Assembly: GCA_903887775.1 (NCBI GenBank)
Contig: CAISRB010000012.1
Coordinates: 248,001-312,000, forward strand
From: an uncultured Bacteroidales bacterium
GTDB lineage: Bacteria; Bacteroidota; Bacteroidia; Bacteroidales; FEN-979
Direction of reading: 5' to 3'
Length of the DNA: 64,000 nucleotides
The notes beneath the pieces are model-generated. The model searched no databases. It was not told the DNA's origin and saw nothing but the letters and a program-made list of their open reading frames with translations. The translations under genes and the position numbers were made by a program. Shown here piece after piece: positions 26,597-45,233 of this stretch. Every line of letters starts with the position of its first letter. Within the stretch, counting starts at the first letter, position 1.

Positions 26597-26604
26597 TAAT
26601 TTTG
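26597..26604 (+). promoter_or_regulatory. -7 box (TAATTTTG) for the nuo operon
   Basis: Perfect TAnnTTTG, 28 bp before the nuoA ATG. A -33 TTG is not evident at the proper distance, which could mean an activated or weak promoter. Confidence 0.6.
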
Positions 26605-26614
26605 CGCTCAGATC

Positions 26615-26630
26615 TGTTAACATGTTAACA
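26615..26630. promoter_or_regulatory. Rex-like operator TGTTAACATGTTAACA upstream of nuoA
   Basis: A perfect 16-bp palindrome, 10 bp after the -7 box and 2 bp before the ATG. It matches 12 of the 14 fixed positions of the Rex operator form TTGTTAA-N4-TTAACAA. The position over the transcript start fits repression. The same core occurs at hdrC (44630-44645). Confidence 0.65.
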
Positions 26631-26632
26631 TT

Positions 26633-26983
26633 ATGAGTGCTGAAAGCCTGATTCTATTCTTTATAGTCGGGGCATTTTTAGTTGGTATTGCCCTGCTGTT
26701 TTCGAGTTTAGTCCCACCTACATCTACCAACTCCCAGAAAGCCGAAGCTTATGAATGCGGGATTCCCACAGAAGGTATAACCTGGTTGCAGTTCAATGTC
26801 GGGTATTATCTTTTTGCCATTATCTTCCTGGTGTTCGACGTTGAAACGGTCTTTATCTTCCCCTGGGCCATTATGATGAAATCGATGGGAATGACCGCTT
26901 TTATTGAGATCATCATTTTCTTTTTCGTATTAGGTGTAGGACTGCTTTATGCCTGGAAGAAAGGAGCGTTGAAATGGGAATAA
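26633..26983 (+). CDS. nuoA: NADH-quinone oxidoreductase subunit A
   Basis: A 116-residue membrane subunit of complex I with three helices. The loop between helices 1 and 2 has the conserved YECGIPT segment (here [11 protein letters not shown]), which lies near the quinone cavity. Helices 2 and 3 contain [10 protein letters not shown], another hallmark. It starts an 11-gene operon and overlaps nuoB by 10 bp. Confidence 0.95.
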
Positions 26984-27531
26984 AAAACATGAAGGAAAAG
27001 GACTTCCGGGATAACGAAACCCTGGAGTTGTTCAAGAGATCCGGTGGTAATGTATTGATGACTTCCATTGATGCTGTGATAGACTGGGGTCGTTCCAATT
27101 CAGTATGGCCGCTGACCTTTGCGACCAGCTGCTGCGGGATTGAAATGATGGCTACCGGAGCTTCCCGCCATGATTTTGCCCGTTTCGGGATTGAAGTTTA
27201 CCGTGCCAGCCCCCGCCAGGCCGACGTTATTGTGGTTGCAGGCACCATAGTAAACAAGATGGCCCCGGTACTGAAGCGTTTATATGACCAGATGTCGGAG
27301 CCAAGGTATGTTATAGCCATGGGAGCATGCGCCGTTTCAGGCGGACCTTTTTATTATAATTCCTATCATGTGGTTCGGGGGGTGGATCAGATTATCCCTG
27401 TGGATGTTTATATCCCCGGCTGCCCTCCGCGTCCCGAAGCTTTATTATACGGGATTATGCAGCTGCAGAGGAAAATCAAACTGGAAACCATCACCCGGCC
27501 CGAAGAATCTATGATCATGGGACGTAAATAA
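26974..27531 (+). CDS. nuoB: NADH-quinone oxidoreductase subunit B
   Basis: A 185-residue peripheral-arm subunit carrying the terminal 4Fe-4S cluster N2 that reduces quinone. The adjacent Cys53-Cys54 in [12 protein letters not shown], the Cys in [10 protein letters not shown] and the Cys in [10 protein letters not shown] are the four ligands. The ATG at 26974 overlaps nuoA; an alternative ATG at 26989 would shorten it by five residues. Confidence 0.96.
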
Positions 27532-27534
27532 ACA

Positions 27535-27602
27535 ATTTTCGCTATTTATTCGCACCAATTATAAATTTCTAATGTGTGCTCATTTTTGCTTCGCAAAACA
27601 CC
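27535..27602 (-). repeat. Interspersed repeat of about 59 bp, copy before nuoC
   Basis: Read on the minus strand, it runs GTGTTTTGCGAAGCAAAA, then ATGAGCACACA, an A/T-rich middle, and GGTGCGAATAAATA. By eye it is identical at 50 of 59 positions to the copy at 36703-36762, which is on the plus strand. It contains the hairpin TTTTGC-TTC-GCAAAA at 27584-27598. It fills most of the 91-bp gap between nuoB and nuoC. Confidence 0.75.
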
Positions 27603-27622
27603 CTTTCGAAAAATAAGTTAAA

Positions 27623-28081
27623 ATGGACAATGATAGCTTAAAAGCCAGGATCCTTGAAATTGTGCCTGAAGCACAGCAGGAGGAAAACAAGCAGTACCTC
27701 ACAATTCTGGTACCTGCCGCCAAACTCCATGACCTGGCCCTTAAAATGAAGAGTACAACTGATCTTGCCTTCGATTACCTGATCTGTCTCAGCGGTGTTG
27801 ATTACGGCAAGCAGCTTGCTGTTGTATATCACATCAATTCCATCCTCCAAAAACATACCGTTGTTATTAAGGTTAAAACCGATGACAGAATTAATCCCTC
27901 TTTCGACACGGTAAGCGATATCTGGCGAACAGCTGAGTTTCATGAGCGCGAGGCATATGATATGTTTGGCATCCGGTTTAACAACCATCCCGATCTCCGA
28001 CGTATCTTCCTTGAGGAAGACTGGAAAGGGTATCCCCTGCGCAAGGATTATGTGGATGAAGTAAACATCGTTGAATTCTAG
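27623..28081 (+). CDS. nuoC: NADH-quinone oxidoreductase subunit C
   Basis: A 152-residue peripheral subunit (30-kDa type). The signature WRTAEFHEREAYDMFGIRFNNHPDLRRIFLEEDWKGYPLRKDY, seen in pieces, is at residues about 100-145. It is not fused to nuoD, unlike in E. coli; the two genes are 3 bp apart. Confidence 0.95.
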   Translation: MDNDSLKARILEIVPEAQQEENKQYLTILVPAAKLHDLALKMKSTTDLAFDYLICLSGVDYGKQLAVVYHINSILQKHTVVIKVKTDDRINPSFDTVSDIWRTAEFHEREAYDMFGIRFNNHPDLRRIFLEEDWKGYPLRKDYVDEVNIVEF

Positions 28082-28084
28082 TCT

Positions 28085-29212
28085 ATGAAAGAGATTATTA
28101 ACCTGCCCGTCAGCAAGATCGAGGAAGAGGAATACCATATTAATATGGGGCCCCAGCATCCCTCCACCCACGGAGTTCTGAGGCTGCTGGTATCCCTCCA
28201 GGGAGAGATCGTCAAAAGCCTTAAGCCACATTGCGGTTATATTCATCGCGGCATTGAGAAAATGTGTGAAAAAGACACCTATCCCCAGGTGATTCATCTC
28301 ACCGACAGGATGGATTATCTTTCGGCACATATTAACAACCATGCAGTATGCCTGCTAGTTGAGAAAGCTCTTGAGATCGAGGTCCCGGAACGTGTAAAAT
28401 ACATCCGGACCATCATGGATGAACTTACCCGCATACAATCGCACCAACTCTGGTGGTCAAGTTTTGGCATGGACCTGGGTGGACTTACCTGTTTCTTTTA
28501 TGGTCTCCGCGATCGTGAAATGATCCTTGATATCTGGGAAGAAACCACCGGCAGCCGTTTTCTTCAGAGTTATAACTGCCCGGGAGGTGTGATGCAGGAC
28601 ATCCATCCGAACTTCCAGAAGAAAGTTCATGCATTCATCAAGACATTCAAGAAAAAAATCAAAGATTACGACCGCATCCTTTCAGGCAATGTCATATTTG
28701 AAAATCGCAGCCAGGGCGTCGGTATTCTTTCAAAGGAAGATGCAATCAGCTATGGTGTCACCGGCCCTTCGGGACGCGGTTCAGGCTGGTCGTGCGACAT
28801 CCGCAAGATCGAACCATACAGCATGTACGGCCAGGTACATTTCAATGAAGTGCTGCGTTACGAATGCGACACTTACTCCAGATATATGGTGCGAATGCAG
28901 GAAATGCATGAATCGATGAACATCATCGAACAGCTTATCGACAATATACCTGCAGGAGATCATTCGGCCAAAATGAAAGCAGTAATCAAGCTGCCAGCCG
29001 GTGAATATTTTCAGCGTGTTGAATCAGCCCGAGGAGAACTCGACGTTTATGTTGTCAGCGATGGCAACAAGACCCCTTACAGGATGAAATTCCGTACCCC
29101 GAGCTTTACCAATTTGGGGGTGCTTGACCATATCAGCCGCGGTATGAAGATTGCCGACCTCGTTGCCATCGGAGCTTCTCTCGACCTAGTAATTCCGGAT
29201 ATTGACAGATAA
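28085..29212 (+). CDS. nuoD: NADH-quinone oxidoreductase subunit D
   Basis: A 375-residue subunit (49-kDa type) that forms the quinone-binding pocket with nuoB. The N-terminus has NMGPQHPSTHGVLRL, where the His and following residues line the quinone site, followed by HCGYIHRGIEKM. It descends from NiFe hydrogenase large subunits but lacks the metal-binding Cys, as normal. The length is normal. Confidence 0.96.
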   Translation: MKEIINLPVSKIEEEEYHINMGPQHPSTHGVLRLLVSLQGEIVKSLKPHCGYIHRGIEKMCEKDTYPQVIHLTDRMDYLSAHINNHAVCLLVEKALEIEVPERVKYIRTIMDELTRIQSHQLWWSSFGMDLGGLTCFFYGLRDREMILDIWEETTGSRFLQSYNCPGGVMQDIHPNFQKKVHAFIKTFKKKIKDYDRILSGNVIFENRSQGVGILSKEDAISYGVTGPSGRGSGWSCDIRKIEPYSMYGQVHFNEVLRYECDTYSRYMVRMQEMHESMNIIEQLIDNIPAGDHSAKMKAVIKLPAGEYFQRVESARGELDVYVVSDGNKTPYRMKFRTPSFTNLGVLDHISRGMKIADLVAIGASLDLVIPDIDR

Positions 29213-29224
29213 AAACAAGGTAGT

Positions 29225-30313
29225 ATGACCTTTAATATTTACGATTTTACATCGTTTAACAGGTGGATTGATGAGGGGCTGAACAGCATCATGTCGCCCA
29301 CCTGGGCACTGATTACCGAGATGGCTATCATCGGGATAGTCTTCCTGCTTTTCTATGCAATTGTCGGCCTGTTCCTCGTATATGCCGAAAGAAAGGTTTG
29401 TGCCTTCATGCAGAACCGGGTCGGGCCAAACAGGGTTGGGCCCTACGGGATCTTCCAGACCATTGCCGACTTCATCAAATTGCTGATGAAAGAACTCGTG
29501 TATATCAAGGATTCCGATAAGCTCCTGTTCAACATAGCACCCTTCATCGTGATCATTGCCTCTTTCATGGCACTTTCCGCCGTACCATTTGCGAAAGGAC
29601 TTCATGCCATCGATTTCGACATCGGGATCCTTTATGTGATCGCCGTTTCATCCCTGGGTGTTGTCGGCATCTTGCTTGCAGGCTGGTCCTCAAACAACAA
29701 ATATTCACTTATCGGGGCTATGAGAAGCGGTGCACAGATCGTCAGTTATGAACTCTCGGTGGGGCTTTCACTGCTTACCATTATCGTTCTGGCAGGGACG
29801 ATGCAGTTTTCGGAGATCGTTGAAATGCAGAGGAATGGCTGGTTCATTTTTAAAGGGCACATCCCGGCAATTATAGCCTTTATAGTGTTCCTGATCGCCA
29901 GTACGGCCGAAACAAACCGTGGGCCTTTTGACCTTGCTGAAGCCGAATCGGAGCTTACAGCAGGTTTCCATACCGAATATTCCGGGATCAAGTTTGCATT
30001 TTTCTTCCTGGCAGAGTATATGAATATGTTCCTGGTTGCCTCAATCGCCGCAACAGTATTCTGGGGTGGCTGGATGCCCTTCCATGTTTCCGGATGGGCA
30101 GGGTTCAACACTATCATGGACTATATCCCGCCCCTGGTATGGTATTTCGGAAAAACTGCCTTTATCATCTGGCTGATGATGTTGTTCAAATGGACTTTCC
30201 CGCGACTCCGTATCGACCAGCTACTGACCCTCGAGTGGAAATACCTGCTCCCGATAAACCTGGTCAACATACTCTTTATGGCATTTTTAGTATTAATGCA
30301 TTGGCATTTTTAG
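29225..30313 (+). CDS. nuoH: NADH-quinone oxidoreductase subunit H
   Basis: A 362-residue membrane subunit at the junction of the peripheral and membrane arms. It has about eight helices and the conserved loop with [22 protein letters not shown] and the acidic motif [27 protein letters not shown], both essential for coupling quinone chemistry to proton movement. The length is slightly above average. Confidence 0.96.
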
Positions 30314-30319
30314 CATACT

Positions 30320-30799
30320 ATGAACAGCTTCTTTAGATATTTTTCAGATATTTTCCATGGGGTGAAATCCCTGCTTATCGGGATGTCGGTCACAGGCCGG
30401 TATTTCTTCAGCCCCGGGCAGATCGTAACACAGCAGTATCCTGAGAACAGGAAGAACCTGCAGATGTTTGAACGTTTCAAAGGTGAAGTTATCATGCTTC
30501 ACGATATAAACAACCAGCATCGCTGCAATGGATGCGGGATTTGTGAAAACAACTGCCCAAACGGTTCAATAGAAATCATTTCGGCCAGGATCACAGGGGA
30601 AGACGGCAAATCAAAACGTATAATCGATAAGCATATCTACCATCTTGGCATGTGCACTTTCTGCGGATTATGCGTTAAGAACTGCCCCTCCAATGCCCTT
30701 GGTTTCGGAAATGAGTTTGAGCATGCAGTGTTCGACCGTTCCAAACTGAATAAAGTATTAAATCAACCCGGTTCATCCATTATTAAAGGTGTAGAGTGA
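30320..30799 (+). CDS. nuoI: NADH-quinone oxidoreductase subunit I
   Basis: A 159-residue ferredoxin-like subunit with two 4Fe-4S motifs, CNGCGICENNCP from Cys69 and CTFCGLCVKNCP from Cys112. It passes electrons to cluster N2 in nuoB. In complexes without nuoEFG this subunit is the likely docking site for an external donor such as ferredoxin. The N-terminal 60 residues contain the amphipathic segment that lies on the membrane. Confidence 0.95.
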   Translation: MNSFFRYFSDIFHGVKSLLIGMSVTGRYFFSPGQIVTQQYPENRKNLQMFERFKGEVIMLHDINNQHRCNGCGICENNCPNGSIEIISARITGEDGKSKRIIDKHIYHLGMCTFCGLCVKNCPSNALGFGNEFEHAVFDRSKLNKVLNQPGSSIIKGVE

Positions 30800-31308
30800 T
30801 GACGAACAATCAATTCATGTTTTTGGTATTTTCAGTGGTGATCGTAGTTTTCTCACTGCTGACAGTGACCAGCCGTCGCATCCTGAGAGCAGCGACTTTC
30901 CTGCTGTTCGTGCTGGTCTCAACGTCAGGATTATATTTCCTGCTCAGGTTTAACTTCCTTGCAGCCATCCAGCTCACCTTGTATGCCGGTGGTATCGTGG
31001 TGCTGATCATCTTCTCCATACTGCTGACCAGCCATATCAGTGAGAAACTGGCTGTTCCGCCGGTAACCAAAAGGATTTATGCAGCTATTGCCGCCATCGC
31101 CGGCGCCGTTCTGTGTATACTTACAATTCTGCAGACTCAGTTTGTCCAGAAAACATTAGACCCGGCAAGAGTTCATATCAGGACTATCGGAGAAGGTATG
31201 CTGAGTACCGGCAAATACGGTTATGCACTGCCATTTGAAGTCATCAGCGTATTGCTGCTGGCAGCCATGATAGGCTCTATAATACTGGCTAAGAAAAGAA
31301 AAGATTAA
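30799..31308 (+). CDS. nuoJ: NADH-quinone oxidoreductase subunit J
   Basis: A 169-residue membrane subunit with five helices. Helix 3 has YAGGIVVLIIFSILL, the conserved region with the pi-bulge important for coupling. The ATG at 30799 overlaps the nuoI stop (TGATG); a GTG one codon upstream is also possible. Confidence 0.93.
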   Translation: MTNNQFMFLVFSVVIVVFSLLTVTSRRILRAATFLLFVLVSTSGLYFLLRFNFLAAIQLTLYAGGIVVLIIFSILLTSHISEKLAVPPVTKRIYAAIAAIAGAVLCILTILQTQFVQKTLDPARVHIRTIGEGMLSTGKYGYALPFEVISVLLLAAMIGSIILAKKRKD

Positions 31309-31325
31309 TTTTAAAAACACCCGCT

Positions 31326-31643
31326 ATGTTTGAAGGCGTACCTGTTCATTGGTTCCTGGTCCTGGCCACCACAATGTTTTTTATCGGGATCTACGGTTTC
31401 CTGGTAAGGAAAAACCTGATCACGATGCTGATGTCGCTCGAACTCATCCTGAATTCGGTCTGCATCAATTTCGTGGCATTCAACAAAATCCTTTTCCCGG
31501 AACATCTCGAAGGGATGTTTTTTACACTGTTCATCATCGCGGTTGCTGCAGCTGAGGCTTCCGTAGCGATCGCAATCATCATCAATATATACCGCCGTCT
31601 GGTGAATATTGATGTGGAAAAGATGAATGAAATGAAATACTAG
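31326..31643 (+). CDS. nuoK: NADH-quinone oxidoreductase subunit K
   Basis: A 105-residue membrane subunit with three helices and the two buried Glu residues of the family (in MSLELILNSVCINFVAF and AVAAAEASVAIAIIINIYR), related to MrpC antiporter subunits. A 101-bp gap with a heptamer array follows before nuoL. Confidence 0.95.
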   Translation: MFEGVPVHWFLVLATTMFFIGIYGFLVRKNLITMLMSLELILNSVCINFVAFNKILFPEHLEGMFFTLFIIAVAAAEASVAIAIIINIYRRLVNIDVEKMNEMKY

Positions 31644-31662
31644 CCATTAGGCATAAGCCAGG

Positions 31663-31708
31663 AGCCATGAGGGAGAATATCATGGCTCATGGCTCATCAC
31701 TCATGGCT
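31663..31708 (+). repeat. Heptamer array CATGGCT x4 with inverted copy, between nuoK and nuoL
   Basis: 31681-31708 is CATGGCT, CATGGCT, CATCACT, CATGGCT in exact 7-nt register. The reverse complement of CTCATGGCT occurs at 31663-31671, so a 9-bp stem with either of two downstream copies is possible. The array ends in TTTTAAAA. Confidence 0.8.
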
Positions 31709-31744
31709 TTTAAAACAATGACTAATGCATAATATAACCAACAT

Positions 31745-33664
31745 ATGATCGATTTCAGTTACACCATCTGGATACTGCTGATACCACTGATAGTGTTCGT
31801 GGTCACAGGGCTTACAGGCAACAGGTTCAAACCCATAGTTACAGGGATTATAGGAACTGCCGGACTGGGTATTGTATTTTTGCTGTCAGTCATAACCGCG
31901 TACAAATTCTTTTTTGTCCTCGATAAGGTTGACGGCGCTTTCCAGCGACTGCTGGCATTCAATTATACCTGGCTCAACCTCACCGACAAGCTGCATATCA
32001 ACATAGGTGTTCTTCTGGATCCTATCTCGGTAATGATGCTTATTGTCATCTCGACGGTATCCTTTATGGTGCATATTTATTCCCTTGGGTATATGAAAGG
32101 GGAGAAAGGATTTGCCCGGTTTTTTTCCATCCTTTCCCTGTTCAGCTTTTCTATGCTCGGACTTGTCATTGCCACCAACATTTTCCAGATGTACATTTTC
32201 TGGGAGCTTGTAGGGGTTTCATCCTTCCTGCTGATTGGCTTCTACTATGAAAAAGACTCGGCGGTGGCTGCAAGCAAGAAAGCATTTATTGTCACCCGTT
32301 TTGCCGACCTGGGATTCCTTATTGGTATCCTGGTTCTTTCCTATACAACAGGCACATTTGATTTCATTACACTTACAGGTCCGAACAGCCCGGCTTTCAC
32401 TTCCGGACAGGGGATCATGTTCCTGGGCATGTCGACGATGACCTGGTCAATGCTGTTTATCTTCATGGGCGGCGCCGGTAAATCGGCGATGTTTCCCCTG
32501 CATATCTGGCTGCCCGATGCCATGGAAGGCCCCACCCCTGTGTCGGCGCTTATCCATGCCGCCACCATGGTTGTTGCCGGTGTTTACCTTGTTGCCCGTA
32601 TGTTCCCGATCTTTCATCATGAGCAGTCGGCACTTGAGATCGTGGCATGGGTCGGAGGGTTCACTTCTTTGTTTGCCGCGGTGATCGCATGTACACAATA
32701 CGACATTAAACGTGTTCTCGCGTACTCGACCATGTCGCAGATCGGCTTAATGATGCTGGCCCTCGGTGTTTCTGGATATGGAGGGGAAGATGGCCTGGGG
32801 TATATGGCGTCGATGTTTCACCTGTTCACGCATGCTTTCTTCAAAGCCTTGCTGTTCCTGGGTGCCGGCGCAATAATCCATGCTGTCCATTCGAATTATA
32901 TGCACGAGATGGGCGGATTACGGAAACACCTTCCGATCACACATGCAACTTTCCTCATTGCCTGCCTGGCGATTTCAGGTATCCCCCCGTTTGCGGGATT
33001 CTTCAGCAAAGACGAGATCCTGGTTGCAGCCTTCCATCACAACAAAGCCTTGTTTGCTATGGAATACCTGGTTGCCGGTATGACAGCCTTTTATATGTTC
33101 CGCCTTTATTTCAATGTGTTCTGGGGGAAAGAACAGCATTACCATCATACGCCTCACGAAGCTCCGTTAACTATGACTTTACCGCTGATCATCCTGGCTA
33201 TCGGTTCAACTTTTGCAGGTTTTATCCCCTTTACAAAGCTTGTCACTTCTGACAGTCTCCCTTTTGAGAACAATACAGAATGGGGTATTGCAATACCTTC
33301 AATTCTGATTGCCCTGGTTGGTATAGGTATCGCCACAATGCTGTATATGAAGAAATCCGACACTTCGAAAAAAGTTTCAATAGCTCTTGGCGGATTTTAC
33401 ACGGCGGCCTTCAACAAGTTTTACATTGACCAGGTTTATCTTTTCATTACAAAAAAAATATTGTTCAACTATGTGTCACGACCGGTTGCGTGGTTCGACC
33501 GTCATATTGTAGATGGCACCATGAACCAGATTGCTTTCGTCACTAATGTGGCTTCAGATAAGATCAAAGGATTTCAGAGTGGACAGCTGCAGCAGTATGC
33601 CCTTGCCTTCGTCTCAGGGGTTATTGGCCTGGCTTTGTTATTCACCTATTTATGGACCAACTAA
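31745..33664 (+). CDS. nuoL: NADH-quinone oxidoreductase subunit L
   Basis: A 639-residue antiporter-like proton-pumping subunit, the most distal in the membrane arm. It has about 15-16 helices. WELVGVSSFLLIGFYYEKDSA holds the conserved Glu, and LPDAMEGPTPVSALIHAATMVVAGVYLVARM is the family signature. A C-terminal extension contains the lateral helix expected in NuoL (residues about 530-600). Confidence 0.96.
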   Translation: MIDFSYTIWILLIPLIVFVVTGLTGNRFKPIVTGIIGTAGLGIVFLLSVITAYKFFFVLDKVDGAFQRLLAFNYTWLNLTDKLHINIGVLLDPISVMMLIVISTVSFMVHIYSLGYMKGEKGFARFFSILSLFSFSMLGLVIATNIFQMYIFWELVGVSSFLLIGFYYEKDSAVAASKKAFIVTRFADLGFLIGILVLSYTTGTFDFITLTGPNSPAFTSGQGIMFLGMSTMTWSMLFIFMGGAGKSAMFPLHIWLPDAMEGPTPVSALIHAATMVVAGVYLVARMFPIFHHEQSALEIVAWVGGFTSLFAAVIACTQYDIKRVLAYSTMSQIGLMMLALGVSGYGGEDGLGYMASMFHLFTHAFFKALLFLGAGAIIHAVHSNYMHEMGGLRKHLPITHATFLIACLAISGIPPFAGFFSKDEILVAAFHHNKALFAMEYLVAGMTAFYMFRLYFNVFWGKEQHYHHTPHEAPLTMTLPLIILAIGSTFAGFIPFTKLVTSDSLPFENNTEWGIAIPSILIALVGIGIATMLYMKKSDTSKKVSIALGGFYTAAFNKFYIDQVYLFITKKILFNYVSRPVAWFDRHIVDGTMNQIAFVTNVASDKIKGFQSGQLQQYALAFVSGVIGLALLFTYLWTN

Positions 33665-33676
33665 AACGATAAAATA

Positions 33677-35188
33677 ATGAGCTTTCTGTTATTGTTCATC
33701 GTAATACCTGTCCTGACTGTTATTGGGATATTTTTCAGCAAAAGCCATATGCAGGTTAAATGGACCGCTGTTCTGGGTATGAGTTGCCAGCTGATCACAG
33801 CTGGGATTCTCATTTACCTCTTCCTGGCTGCGCGGGCAGCTGGGAATACTGCAGAAATCCTTTTCTCACAGGATATGGTCTGGTACAAGAACCTGAACAT
33901 ACATTTCTTTATTGGAGTAGACGGTGTGTCAGTCGCTATGATAGGCCTTACCTCTATTGTGATCTTCGCAGGGATTTTTGCTTCCTGGGATGTAACTGAC
34001 CTGCCCAGGGAATTTTTCACATCGCTGATTCTTCTTTCGGCAGGGGTATTCGGGTTTTTTATTTCACTGGACCTTTTCACCCTTTTCCTTTTTTATGAAA
34101 TTGCTGTGATCCCGATGTACCTGCTTATCGGTATCTGGGGAAGCGGCCCCAGGCATTATTCGGCAATGAAGCTTACTCTTATGCTTATGGGCGGTTCGGC
34201 GCTGATCATGCTGGGCTTGCTTGGCCTTTATTTTAACTCAGCCCCGAATGGAGGGCCCCTGACTTTCAACCTGATCCAGATCTCGAAGGTGGCAATTCCA
34301 ATGCCGGCCCAGCGTTTCTTCTTCCCGTTCCTCTTTGTGGGATTTGGGGTGCTTGGTGCGCTTTTCCCTTTCCACACATGGTCGCCCGACGGTCATGCCT
34401 CGGCACCGACTGCTGTTTCTATGCTTCATGCTGGCGTCCTTATGAAACTAGGTGGTTACGGCTGCTACCGCGTTGCAGTATTCCTTCTTCCCGGCGCTGC
34501 TCATGAAATGGCATGGATTTTTTTGATCCTTACAACCATCGGCGTGATCTACGGAGCTTTCGGCGCTATCTGGCAGAAAGATTTAAAATATATCAACGCA
34601 TATTCCTCGGTGAGCCATTGCGCCCTGGTGCTTTTTGCCGTGCTGATGATGAACCAGACAGCAATGAACGGGGCCATCATGCAGATGATCTCCCACGGTA
34701 TCATGACAGCCCTTTTCTTTGCACTGATCGGGATGATTTACGGACGTACGCACACAAGGTATATAAACGAGATGGGCGGACTGATGAAAGTCATGCCGTT
34801 TCTTGGCGTTGCCTATGTGATTGGCGGGTTAGCTTCACTTGGGCTTCCCGGTTTCAGCGGCTTTGTTGCCGAGATGACCATATTCGTTGGCTCTTTTCAG
34901 CATAACGATGTTTTCCACAGGGTTGCAACCATAATCGCCGCTTCTTCGATTGTGGTGACAGCCGTGTATATCCTGCGTGTTATCGGTATCCTGCTTATGG
35001 GCAAGATAAAAAATCCGGAATTCAATCATATTACTGACGCCAAATGGTTTGACCGTATGAGCGTTGTTACCCTTATCCTTGGTATTACCGCTATCGGCCT
35101 GGCCCCTCTTTGGCTGAGCGATATGATCAATAACGGACTGGTTCCGGTTATGCAGAGGATATTGATGGCAGGCCCCGTTATTCATTAA
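33677..35188 (+). CDS. nuoM: NADH-quinone oxidoreductase subunit M
   Basis: A 503-residue antiporter-like proton-pumping subunit with about 14 helices. LFLFYEIAVIPMYLLIGIWG carries the conserved Glu, and FPFHTWSPDGHASAPTAVSMLHAGVLMKLGGYG, seen in pieces, is the family signature. It is 12 bp downstream of nuoL. Confidence 0.96.
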   Translation: MSFLLLFIVIPVLTVIGIFFSKSHMQVKWTAVLGMSCQLITAGILIYLFLAARAAGNTAEILFSQDMVWYKNLNIHFFIGVDGVSVAMIGLTSIVIFAGIFASWDVTDLPREFFTSLILLSAGVFGFFISLDLFTLFLFYEIAVIPMYLLIGIWGSGPRHYSAMKLTLMLMGGSALIMLGLLGLYFNSAPNGGPLTFNLIQISKVAIPMPAQRFFFPFLFVGFGVLGALFPFHTWSPDGHASAPTAVSMLHAGVLMKLGGYGCYRVAVFLLPGAAHEMAWIFLILTTIGVIYGAFGAIWQKDLKYINAYSSVSHCALVLFAVLMMNQTAMNGAIMQMISHGIMTALFFALIGMIYGRTHTRYINEMGGLMKVMPFLGVAYVIGGLASLGLPGFSGFVAEMTIFVGSFQHNDVFHRVATIIAASSIVVTAVYILRVIGILLMGKIKNPEFNHITDAKWFDRMSVVTLILGITAIGLAPLWLSDMINNGLVPVMQRILMAGPVIH

Positions 35189-35224
35189 ATCGAAAAAAGT
35201 AGAAAACAAATAAATATCTGACCC

Positions 35225-36634
35225 ATGTTGATCATGAGACACGAATTACTGCTGATCGCCATCACGGTAATTCTATTGCTTGTTGAGATTTTTCTTCCCG
35301 GTGATAAAAAGAGCAGGGTTATAACTCTTGCCATCTTGCTGATGACGGCTGTTCTCATCCTTGGTTTCGTACCGGGACCGTCGGGCACCCTGTTCGGTGG
35401 GATGTATCAGACCACTGCACTGATCAGCATGCTTAAAAACATCCTGAATATAGGGGCGCTGATCGTGATGATCCAGAGTGCAGACTGGCTCAGGAAACCT
35501 GAAAATAAAGAAAAGATCAGCGAATATTATATTCTGTTGCTTTCAACTCTTATCGGGATGCAGTATATGCTTTCTTCGGGAGATTTCCTGATGTTCTACC
35601 TTGGACTGGAACTGGCGACCATTCCCCTGGCAGCTCTTGCTGCTTTCGAACGTTTCAAGGAGAAATCTGCTGAAGCAGGTGTAAAATTTATTTTCTCGTC
35701 AGCATTATCATCCGGCATATTGCTTTACGGCCTTTCAATGATTTACGGCACTACCGGAACCCTGTACTTTGCTGAAGTCGGGCCGGCTTTCACCGGCACC
35801 CCTCTGCAGGTTCTCGGTTTTATATTTTTCTTCGCCGGCATGGCTTTCAAAATTTCCCTGGTTCCTTTCCATCTCTGGACGGCCGACGTTTACGAAGGAG
35901 CCCCTGTAAATATCTCTTCTTATCTTTCGGTTGTTTCAAAGGGGGCCGCTGCCTTCATTTTAACGATTCTTCTGTTCACCGTGTTCAGCAAGATCGCACT
36001 GATGTGGAGCAATGTACTTTATATAATTATAATATTGACGATCACGATGGGGAACCTCTTTGCCATCCGCCAGCAAAACCTTAAACGATTCCTTGCATTT
36101 TCTTCAATCGCACAGGCAGGTTTTATCCTGTTGGGTATCATAGGGCAAAGCCAGTATGGTATGACTACCGTGATTTATTTCGTCCTTGTCTATATCTTCT
36201 CAAACCTCGGTGCCTTCGGTGTGGTTTCCATTATTTCTAATCGTACGGGCTGTGAAACGATCAATGATTATGATGGTCTGTACAGGACAAATCCAAGGCT
36301 TGCAATGATGATGATGCTGTCACTTTTTTCACTTGCAGGTATTCCCCCGGTAGCCGGTTTCTTCGGAAAATTTTTCCTCTTTGCCGCAGCAGCCAATCAC
36401 GGGCTTTATATACTTGTCCTGATCGCCATTATCAATACGATCATTTCATTGTACTATTACCTGCTTGTTATCAAGGCCATGTTCCTGAATCGCAGCGACA
36501 GGCCGATACCGAAATTTAAAAGCGATTTCTATACAAGCCTGGGCCTTATTTTATGCCTGGCAGGTATTTTTGCCGTAGGTATCGCAAGCACTATATTTGA
36601 AGCAATTAACGGATTGAGTTTCGGACTGTACTAA
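35225..36634 (+). CDS. nuoN: NADH-quinone oxidoreductase subunit N
   Basis: A 469-residue antiporter-like proton-pumping subunit with about 14 helices. MFYLGLELATIPLAALAAF has the conserved Glu and FKISLVPFHLWTADVYEGAPVNISSYLSV, seen in pieces, is the family signature. An alternative ATG at 35234 would remove three residues. It ends the recognisable complex I genes; nuoE, nuoF and nuoG are absent. Confidence 0.95.
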   Translation: MLIMRHELLLIAITVILLLVEIFLPGDKKSRVITLAILLMTAVLILGFVPGPSGTLFGGMYQTTALISMLKNILNIGALIVMIQSADWLRKPENKEKISEYYILLLSTLIGMQYMLSSGDFLMFYLGLELATIPLAALAAFERFKEKSAEAGVKFIFSSALSSGILLYGLSMIYGTTGTLYFAEVGPAFTGTPLQVLGFIFFFAGMAFKISLVPFHLWTADVYEGAPVNISSYLSVVSKGAAAFILTILLFTVFSKIALMWSNVLYIIIILTITMGNLFAIRQQNLKRFLAFSSIAQAGFILLGIIGQSQYGMTTVIYFVLVYIFSNLGAFGVVSIISNRTGCETINDYDGLYRTNPRLAMMMMLSLFSLAGIPPVAGFFGKFFLFAAAANHGLYILVLIAIINTIISLYYYLLVIKAMFLNRSDRPIPKFKSDFYTSLGLILCLAGIFAVGIASTIFEAINGLSFGLY

Positions 36635-43390: not shown

Positions 43391-44521
43391 ATGAACGCTA
43401 CCCTTCCTTCATTCATAAGCAGCAAATTCAAACTCTGGTCATTTATTTCTATGGTATTGCTCGTATTCGTGCATGGTTACAATATGCACGAACGCTACCT
43501 GCAGCCATGGACAATCCCCGGTGAAGGATTGTCCCTGACCGGATTTATTGAGTATTTCTTTGCAAACGGAATATTCCGTTTCAGGATCCCAATGCTTTTT
43601 ATTATTTCGGGATTTCTTTTCGCGATGCATGATGACCGCCCGTACCGGTTGCGTGCAGGGAAACGCTTTCGCTCCCTTTTTGTCCCATACCTTATATGGA
43701 GTGCATTCGGCCTTGCATTCACCTATGGGCTTGAAATGCTGCCATGGGGGCGGGATCTGGTGGGAGGATCACATGTAGTTCAGATTTCCGATAAACAACT
43801 GCTGTTACACGACTACCGATGGTACGAGCTCCTGGGGCGCTGGCTTTTAATTCCCGTGCCATACCAACTATGGTTTATCCGGGTCCTTTTTATTTACAAT
43901 CTGGCTTATCCTGCGATCCGATGGTGTGTTTTAAACCGAATCGGCCGGTGGATATTCTTTGGCTTTGCAATTCTTCTTTGGCTGGGAACAATGGGATTTG
44001 TCATCATTGAAGGCGAGGGACTGCTTTTCTTCTCCCTCGGTGTCTGGATCCAAAAAAGCGGTTTCAATATTGAGCAGCCTGCACGCTGGCTGAAACCTTC
44101 GATCTGGGGAATTCTTTTCATAAGCCTTGCAGCCCTAAAAACATACCTGGCTCTTACTGCGGAAAATTACACGGGACTGCCCCTATTTCCTGTTCTGACC
44201 CTTTTACACAAGATGATGGTTTTGAGTGGATTGATCGCTTGCTGGTATGGCCTGGACCCTCTTGTACGATGGTGTATGAACAAACCATGGTTCGTTTGGC
44301 TGACGGCTTTTTCCTTTATAATTTATGCCATGCATGCACCCCTCGTTGCCTACTGCATTGATCCCGCACTCAGGCTGCTCGCACCGCTGAATGTTCCGGG
44401 ACTAAGTGCATTCGTCCTGCTGCCGGCATTTATTATCGCGTTTTGTATAGGTACCGGCTTGATTTTACGCACATTTGTGCCCAAAGCCTATGCTATTCTG
44501 ACCGGCGGGAGAGGGATGTGA
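43391..44521 (+). CDS. Acyltransferase family 3 membrane protein
   Basis: A 376-residue polytopic protein with about ten helices. The start LWSFISMVLLVFVHGYNMHE provides the conserved early His of acyltransferase 3, and FRFRIPMLFIISGFLFA matches the family's second block with the Arg/Pro pattern. Such proteins move O-acetyl or other acyl groups onto surface glycans, lipids or antibiotics. The substrate is unknown. It stands alone between the TonB operon and the hdr-flx operon. Confidence 0.87.
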   Translation: MNATLPSFISSKFKLWSFISMVLLVFVHGYNMHERYLQPWTIPGEGLSLTGFIEYFFANGIFRFRIPMLFIISGFLFAMHDDRPYRLRAGKRFRSLFVPYLIWSAFGLAFTYGLEMLPWGRDLVGGSHVVQISDKQLLLHDYRWYELLGRWLLIPVPYQLWFIRVLFIYNLAYPAIRWCVLNRIGRWIFFGFAILLWLGTMGFVIIEGEGLLFFSLGVWIQKSGFNIEQPARWLKPSIWGILFISLAALKTYLALTAENYTGLPLFPVLTLLHKMMVLSGLIACWYGLDPLVRWCMNKPWFVWLTAFSFIIYAMHAPLVAYCIDPALRLLAPLNVPGLSAFVLLPAFIIAFCIGTGLILRTFVPKAYAILTGGRGM

Positions 44522-44618: not shown

Positions 44619-44626
44619 TAACTTTG
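44619..44626 (+). promoter_or_regulatory. -7 box (TAACTTTG) for the hdr-flx operon
   Basis: A perfect TAnnTTTG match 34 bp before the hdrC ATG, with a partial -33 (CTG at 44598-44600) 18 bp upstream. The Rex-like palindrome begins 3 bp downstream. Confidence 0.6.
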
Positions 44627-44629
44627 TAA

Positions 44630-44645
44630 TGTTAATTAATTAACA
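44630..44645. promoter_or_regulatory. Rex-like operator TGTTAATTAATTAACA upstream of hdrC
   Basis: A perfect 16-bp palindrome overlapping the predicted transcript start, with the same TGTTAA-N4-TTAACA core as the site at nuoA. It matches 12 of 14 fixed positions of TTGTTAA-N4-TTAACAA. Being A/T-rich, it is somewhat easier to get by chance than the nuoA copy. Confidence 0.6.
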
Positions 44646-44660: not shown

Positions 44661-45233
44661 ATGATAACACTCTCATACAAAGGAAACAACACTTTCCTGG
44701 AGGCCGTAAACAAAAAAAGCGGCTCCGACGTGCTGGAATGTTACCAGTGCGGCAAATGTGTGTCGACCTGCCCGGTCTCAAATTTTATGGATTTTCCACC
44801 CCGGGAGATCATGCAGATGATCAAGCTGGAGCTTAAAGAAGAGGCACAGATGGCCAACTCCACATGGTTCTGTCTTACCTGTTCAGCCTGCTCGGGACGT
44901 TGCCCCCGCGAGATCAATATTCCCGCTGTCATGGAGGCAGTCCGCCACCTGGCCATAGAGGAAAATTTCCATCCAGACTCCAAGCAGGTAAAAAACATAC
45001 GGAAATTTCACGAGATTTTCCTTGCGATGATCAAACGTTACGGACGGAATTATGAACTGCGTATGATGGCCGAATTCAATATCCGTACCCGCAACCTTTT
45101 CAAAGATATGCACCTGGCTCCAACCGCTCTGCTGAAAGGAAAAATTCCTTTAGGCGTGAAGTCAATGAAGAGTGCAAAGGCCATTAAAAAAATGTACGAG
45201 ATGGCTGAGAAACTTGAACAACTTAATAAATAA
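44661..45233 (+). CDS. hdrC: Heterodisulfide reductase-like subunit C
   Basis: A 190-residue iron-sulfur protein with two 4Fe-4S motifs: CYQCGKCVSTCP from Cys27 and CLTCSACSGRCP from Cys71. This is the arrangement of HdrC, which relays electrons from HdrA to HdrB. No membrane helix is present, so the complex is soluble, unlike HdrDE. The Rex-like site and a -7 box precede it. HdrC-like proteins without methanogenesis are known in sulfate reducers and acetogens. Confidence 0.9.
   Translation: MITLSYKGNNTFLEAVNKKSGSDVLECYQCGKCVSTCPVSNFMDFPPREIMQMIKLELKEEAQMANSTWFCLTCSACSGRCPREINIPAVMEAVRHLAIEENFHPDSKQVKNIRKFHEIFLAMIKRYGRNYELRMMAEFNIRTRNLFKDMHLAPTALLKGKIPLGVKSMKSAKAIKKMYEMAEKLEQLNK

Follow-up and report, generated by a model that had tools for sequence, protein, structure and literature searches.

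A predicted Rex operator at the start of the complex I operon of an uncultured Bacteroidales bacterium

The nuoA promoter region

The window, a stretch of 64,000 nucleotides of DNA from an uncultured Bacteroidales bacterium, carries on its forward strand a complex I operon that begins with nuoA (26633-26983; PF00507) and continues from nuoB to nuoN (26974-36634; Pfam assignments) in the order nuoABCDHIJKLMN. No nuoE, nuoF or nuoG was found with Pfam among the open reading frames of this 11-gene operon, so that NADH as a direct substrate or donor of this complex I is unsupported by gene content, and the role proposed here for NADH is solely that of the signal read by Rex. Upstream of nuoA, TAATTTTG (26597-26604, forward strand) fits TAnnTTTG, the -7 box of Bacteroidetes, and is followed after 10 nt by the predicted Rex operator of the operon, TGTTAACATGTTAACA (26615-26630), which has no strand of its own as a 16-bp perfect palindrome and ends 2 nt before the nuoA ATG at 26633. 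The original prediction had placed such a palindrome between the -7 box and the nuoA start, exactly where it is found. The site fits the palindromic core TGTKAA-N4-TTMACA without mismatch, but it departs from the 18-bp consensus TTGTGAAN4TTCACAA at the first and last letters, with C at 26614 and T at 26631. These outer letters were not treated as defining, since cTGTGAATCAATTCACAt, a candidate Rex site of Caldithrix abyssi, differs from the consensus at the same two letters (PMC5317091).

TAnnTTTG has been described as the Bacteroidetes -7 box (PMC7366714) and was placed in a flavobacterium at -12 to -5 (PMC9723704), from which the start of transcription is predicted near 26609. The operator would then span about +7 to +22, and the nuoA ATG would lie at about +25. 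The palindrome had been expected to lie over the transcription start; it would lie instead just downstream of it, a position that still fits a block of transcription. The spacer of the operator contains an ATG, missing from many relatives, which opens a frame of four codons (26622-26636) whose TGA overlaps the nuoA ATG. A second nuoA cluster (C12:315756), just past the window, showed no site at two mismatches or fewer in the 4.5 kb scanned (C12:312001-316500), so Rex control would cover one complex I set only.

A second site at hdrC

The original prediction also named a matching site at hdrC, and this was recovered as a second predicted Rex operator, TGTTAATTAATTAACA (44630-44645, likewise without strand), with an exact TGTTAAN4TTAACA. 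It lies 3 nt downstream of a -7-type box, TAACTTTG (44619-44626, forward strand), and 15 nt before a forward-strand open reading frame (44661-45233) for an HdrC-like iron-sulfur protein, whose best NCBIfam match, TIGR03290, stays under its cut-off. HdrB-like (CCG), HdrA-like and MvhD-like (FlpD) genes follow in this order.

The window holds three perfect 16-bp palindromes where about 1.0 would be expected from base composition, and perfect palindromy alone was therefore dropped as evidence. The third palindrome, AACGGAATATTCCGTT (43565-43580), lies within an open reading frame (43391-44521). Loose matching in the window proved uninformative as well, since the four matches at two mismatches or fewer compare with a mean of 3.2 after shuffling, a count of four being reached in 42 of 100 shuffles.

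Motif excess in the genome

The whole genome (3.83 Mb in 33 contigs), in which the window occupies C12:248001-312000, was scanned with the reversed pattern as control. Exact TGTTAAN4TTAACA occurs at six places, two of which fall in the 64-kb window; the reversed pattern has none, and about 0.4 would be expected from composition. At one mismatch or fewer the counts are 43 versus 10. The variant TGTGAA or TTCACA accounts for 9 of the 37 one-mismatch places, where even substitution would give about two, and this variant is the published Rex half-site, with consensus TTGTGAANNNNTTCACAA (PMC6391272). The motif extended in this way, TGTKAAN4TTMACA, has 16 perfect places in the genome versus none reversed, and 84 versus 25 at one mismatch or fewer. 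Equally good matches scattered through coding regions, named beforehand as counter-evidence, were not seen: a single one of the 16 perfect places lies inside a gene according to our own gene calls, others overlapping only early-start or antisense frames.

At least 10 of the 16 perfect places precede redox or central-carbon genes by the same gene calls, and operons linked to NADH, ferredoxin or acyl-CoA account for most of the sites. Listed with the nucleotides from site to start codon, the plausible targets of the perfect places are nuoA (2), the hdrC-like gene (15), an HdrA-like gene heading an HdrA/hydrogenase cluster (5), and genes for a methylmalonyl-CoA epimerase (20; TIGR03081, over cut-off), an isocitrate/isopropylmalate-type dehydrogenase (29), a glutamate dehydrogenase (29), an MmdA-like carboxyl transferase (9), a pyruvate:ferredoxin oxidoreductase (35; TIGR02176, over cut-off), a biotin carboxylase (92; a divergent gene starts at 78), a 2-oxoacid:ferredoxin oxidoreductase (192) and an FAD/NAD oxidoreductase (119). 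One more place lies between a Crp/Fnr gene and a divergent DsrE-like gene, its target being unclear, and the remaining ones are unconvincing: one at the 3′ end of acpS, the sole perfect place inside a gene; one in the spacer between susC and a glycosidase gene; one at an M13 peptidase gene; and one that is about 385 nt away from ribD. We assigned the names acpS, susC, glycosidase and DsrE by reading the translations. The HdrA-headed cluster contains an HdrA-type and a VhuA-type hydrogenase gene, neither reaching its NCBIfam cut-off, together with others that were read, without a scan, as HdrBC-, MvhD- and MvhG-like. HdrA-like and VhuA-like [NiFe]-hydrogenase genes cluster beside a Crp/Fnr gene at L074:5423-13009, in a Bacteroidales genome.

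Sites with one mismatch add a second glutamate dehydrogenase and a NuoE/NuoF-like pair, and tandem pairs of such sites precede [FeFe]-hydrogenase gene sets. Tandem pairs of imperfect operators were seen at L196:3931-3963 and L196:11727-11759, with 17 nt from start to start, and one of the [FeFe]-hydrogenase sets behind a tandem pair includes a PAS-bearing hydrogenase protein. Promoter boxes were counted at 50 of the 84 sites at one mismatch or fewer, comprising 16/16 perfect sites and 34/68 others. Of these 50, 13 have a TAnnTTTG box that points at the site from at most 40 nt away, versus 2.9% of random positions in these loci and 1 of 10 reversed-control sites, part of this difference being due to the sites lying at promoters, since random positions include coding DNA.

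Conservation of the nuoA site

Within the family of this bacterium, the nuoA site is present in the same place at one mismatch or fewer in 22 of 23 loci (23/34 other family genomes with a NuoA match), the remaining locus having two mismatches, whereas none of the six NuoA loci from other families has a site there, though four of these six genomes carry some Rex. This set included 29 of 30 NuoA loci, L021 having given no pattern match. Among named genomes, a site at one mismatch or fewer lies at most 60 nt from nuoA in 34 of 79 loci versus 0/79 for the reversed control (79 of 80 loci, L153 being too short; L185, with N at the site, was scored as a miss). By NuoA, the nearest named relatives are Bacteroidales assembled from metagenomes, some of which name Lac Pavin in their titles. 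Both sets consist of related genomes and probably overlap, so their counts are not independent. A Rex match is found in 34 of the 37 family genomes, our own included; the three others, G006, G021 and G032, are 80, 88 and 93% complete, and two of them, G021 and G032, keep the nuoA operator despite having no Rex match.

In the 36 operators kept at two mismatches or fewer, a selection that in itself favours fixed half-site columns, no more than one row deviates in 9 of the 12 half-site columns, whereas all four spacer columns vary. The loose positions are 11 (six rows deviating) and 16 (18 rows). At position 13, A occurs in 17 and C in 18 of the 36 operators, both letters being allowed by the motif.

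The Rex protein of this genome

A rex homologue, whose absence would have spoken against the original prediction, is present. The genome has a single PF06971 match (C11:180358-180498; 53.4 bits, cut-off 27), within an open reading frame of 213 amino acids that also exceeds the NCBIfam cut-offs of NF003995 (202.6 versus 126), NF003996 (182.7 versus 138) and NF003994 (171.8 versus 130); with six narrower NCBIfam Rex equivalogs its scores remain under the cut-offs. Eight solved relatives were retrieved with E values from 5e-35 to 4e-26, seven of them named Rex and one an AT-rich DNA-binding protein. Two other solved Rex proteins, which we take to be those of B. subtilis and S. agalactiae, carry Arg-Arg at the recognition-helix pair, as does this protein. 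In view of these two, and of the TTGTGAA sites of S. aureus Rex (PMC2883068), the idea that a change from Lys to Arg at residue 50 explains the T at half-site position 4 was dropped. A receiver-histidine kinase gene lies upstream of rex, the two sharing 10 nt, and a predicted operator, TGTGATTTTATTAACA, overlaps the A of the ATG of the kinase gene, at the start of the kinase-rex operon. This arrangement of kinase, rex and operator was noted at L007:1015-2780 and L075:6508-7638.

By alignment, R19, Y101 and D193 of this Rex correspond to Arg16, Tyr98 and Asp188 of the T. aquaticus protein. These three T. aquaticus residues have been described as the NAD+/NADH switch (PMC6125430), and R49 and R50 align with Arg48 and Lys49 of T. 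maritima Rex, described as key base contacts (PMC8836258). The T. maritima wing contacts Arg60 and Gly61 are not kept, the aligned residues being Leu61 and Arg62, but wing contacts were not treated as defining, since the available part of the source is inconsistent on Arg60, calling it once an exception and once highly conserved (PMC8836258).

Motif and Rex type across the order

A close Rex was defined as one with at least 40% identity to the protein described here, a threshold set after the list had been seen. In 198 genomes of the order, the 80 with a close Rex have 424 TGTKAAN4TTMACA sites against 141 for the reversed control, whereas the 41 with only a distant Rex have 39 against 60 and the 77 with no Rex 149 against 163. 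The difference between close Rex and no Rex has a Mann-Whitney p of 2e-8, with genomes treated as independent although they come from related lineages, and it persists with our own family excluded (402 versus 141 in 78 close-Rex genomes; p 5e-8). A first split at a PF06971 score of 58, likewise picked after seeing the list, had given 421 versus 160 in 86 genomes, 42 versus 41 in 35 and 149 versus 163 in 77, and it was replaced by the identity threshold. There are exceptions on both sides: sites exceed the control by at least five in three genomes without Rex (G157, 6/1; G191, 16/1; G226, 7/1) and in one with a distant Rex (G167, 5/0), and 16 of the 80 close-Rex genomes have fewer sites than the control.

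In an alignment of 50 rows, R19, R49, R50, Y101 and D193 are kept in all 41 close rows. All nine distant rows have Lys at 50 and differ from this Rex at the other four positions. The distant rows (L086-L089 and L222-L226, all strong PF06971 matches) stand for eight genes, L086 and L223 being the same, and these eight represent the 41 distant-only genomes; the distant genes read therefore lack the operator-contact arginine and the residues of the NADH switch.

Predicted operators in front of rex genes

In the 30 best-scoring close-Rex loci, ranked blind to sites, 10 carry the motif at most 150 nt upstream of rex, versus 1 of 30 for the control, and the other 20 rex genes have no operator within that distance. 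Two loci were kept among the 30 as they stood, L234 (35 nt upstream, start misplaced) and L249 (136 nt). Five of the ten have two motifs, 53-57 nt apart. An earlier sample, superseded by the 30-locus one, drew 15 close-Rex loci from genomes picked for their motif excess, and 9 of these 15 had an operator at most 120 nt from rex. The site at the kinase-rex start recurs at the same distance in six of the seven genus genomes examined, G007 lacking it. In the own family outside the genus, an operator was found upstream in just 2 of 12 rex loci, plus 0 of 4 in a second set (the rex frame was located in 21 of the 30 loci of the first set, the remaining nine being read separately). The eight distant rex genes (nine rows) show no motif at one mismatch or fewer in the upstream DNA scanned.

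We give about even odds to the reading that Bacteroidales hold two separate Rex lineages. The first, represented by this Rex, would be an NADH-switched repressor whose large regulon takes in genes for complex I, hydrogenases, ferredoxin-linked and heterodisulfide-reductase-like proteins; the second, though scoring as Rex, would have lost the contact arginine and the switch residues and, given the lack of operator excess in distant-only genomes, would sense or bind something else. The proteins of the order that score as Rex are of at least two kinds, so a Rex score needs caution.

A probable redox switch for the nuo operon and its alternatives

The best explanation of the palindrome is an operator at which Rex acts as repressor of the nuo operon, and we put the probability of this reading at about 0.9. 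The claim of a Rex-type core is supported by the presence of rex, the motif excess, the co-occurrence of motif and Rex type over 198 genomes and the operators at rex genes, to which the conservation of the site and of the protein residues can be added. Binding, repression and release by NADH would be as in Rex elsewhere. Each TGTKAA half-site would receive one winged helix-turn-helix of a Rex dimer. Seated just past the predicted transcription start, the dimer would block RNA polymerase while NAD+ prevails. With rising NADH, Rex would close and leave the DNA, and nuo would be expressed together with the hdr, hydrogenase, 2-oxoacid:ferredoxin oxidoreductase, glutamate dehydrogenase and methylmalonyl-CoA pathway genes. 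The outcome would be a testable redox regulon for uncultured Bacteroidales, in which a single NADH/NAD+ switch is predicted to act on complex I, heterodisulfide-reductase-like complexes, hydrogenases and genes of the methylmalonyl-CoA pathway.

An unlikely alternative is that Rex binds but activates, or acts in some other way, modulated by the receiver-histidine kinase encoded before it, as the overlap of the two genes and the operator at the kinase start might suggest; the predicted position of the nuoA operator at +7 to +22 suits a block of transcription, not activation, and we know of no Rex that is a phosphoprotein.

It is more improbable still that the operator belongs to a regulator of the Crp/Fnr family, whose sites, TGTGA-N6-TCACA and relatives, share this half-site geometry. 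The genome has eight HTH_Crp_2 matches, one Crp/Fnr gene lies directly 5′ of the hdr-mvh operon with the site between them, and a second diverges from the DsrE-like gene, again with a site in between. However, 72 Crp-bearing genomes without Rex show no motif excess (145 versus 157), and four of the seven close-Rex genomes without an HTH_Crp_2 match (a test made with this single HTH model at E 0.001) keep an excess of at least three (G111, 7/0; G214, 7/1; G097, 70% complete, 4/0; G212, 4/1), the other three being G109 (1/0), G148 (0/0) and G175 (2/7). In the genomes of the order, the motif excess therefore does not depend on a Crp/Fnr gene. Position 4 of the dominant half-site is T, as opposed to G in Crp/Fnr sites, and the motif is found at rex genes (10 of 30 close loci). 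Crp/Fnr proteins may act at the two loci that they adjoin.

Finally, a chance or translation-related sequence by the start codon, kept by shared descent, is hardly credible, for although the window has two further perfect 16-bp palindromes (the hdrC site and the one inside an open reading frame) and the nuoA conservation counts stem from related genomes, the half-sites are near-fixed while the spacer changes, 35 of 36 operators show the A or C of the motif at position 13 (under the two-mismatch selection), and the genome-wide excess of 16 versus 0 speaks against chance.

Comparison with known Rex systems

The Rex repression of nuo favoured here is a switch of a well-known kind, in a group about which little was found in the literature searched: the matches listed included no title on Rex in Bacteroidales, and no paper on a Bacteroidetes Rex regulon was found. 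RegPrecise includes a Bacteroidaceae collection according to the available part of its description (PMC3840689), so Rex in Bacteroidales cannot be called undescribed.

With T. maritima Rex, for which structures with operator and NAD+ exist, the protein shares the Arg-basic pair in the recognition helix and the aligned switch Tyr and Asp, whereas the T. maritima protein has Lys for Arg50 and Met for Arg19, and Arg60/Gly61 in place of Leu61/Arg62. Caldithrix abyssi, from another phylum, has a candidate Rex site 38 bp before rex, which is clustered with an NAD-dependent [FeFe]-hydrogenase, with no nuo or hdr targets described in the part of the source available (PMC5317091). It was in Streptomyces that Rex control of nuoA-nuoN first became known (PMC8063818). 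The Rex/ROP system of Streptomyces coelicolor and other Gram-positive bacteria has the same winged-helix and Rossmann repressor with its published consensus (PMC6391272), and counts nuoA-nuoN and rex itself among its targets (PMC8063818, PMC6391272). By comparison with Streptomyces ROP, the predicted system described here has a half-site that is mostly TGTTAA, with TGTGAA in the minority, a Bacteroidales host and a nuo operon without nuoEFG.
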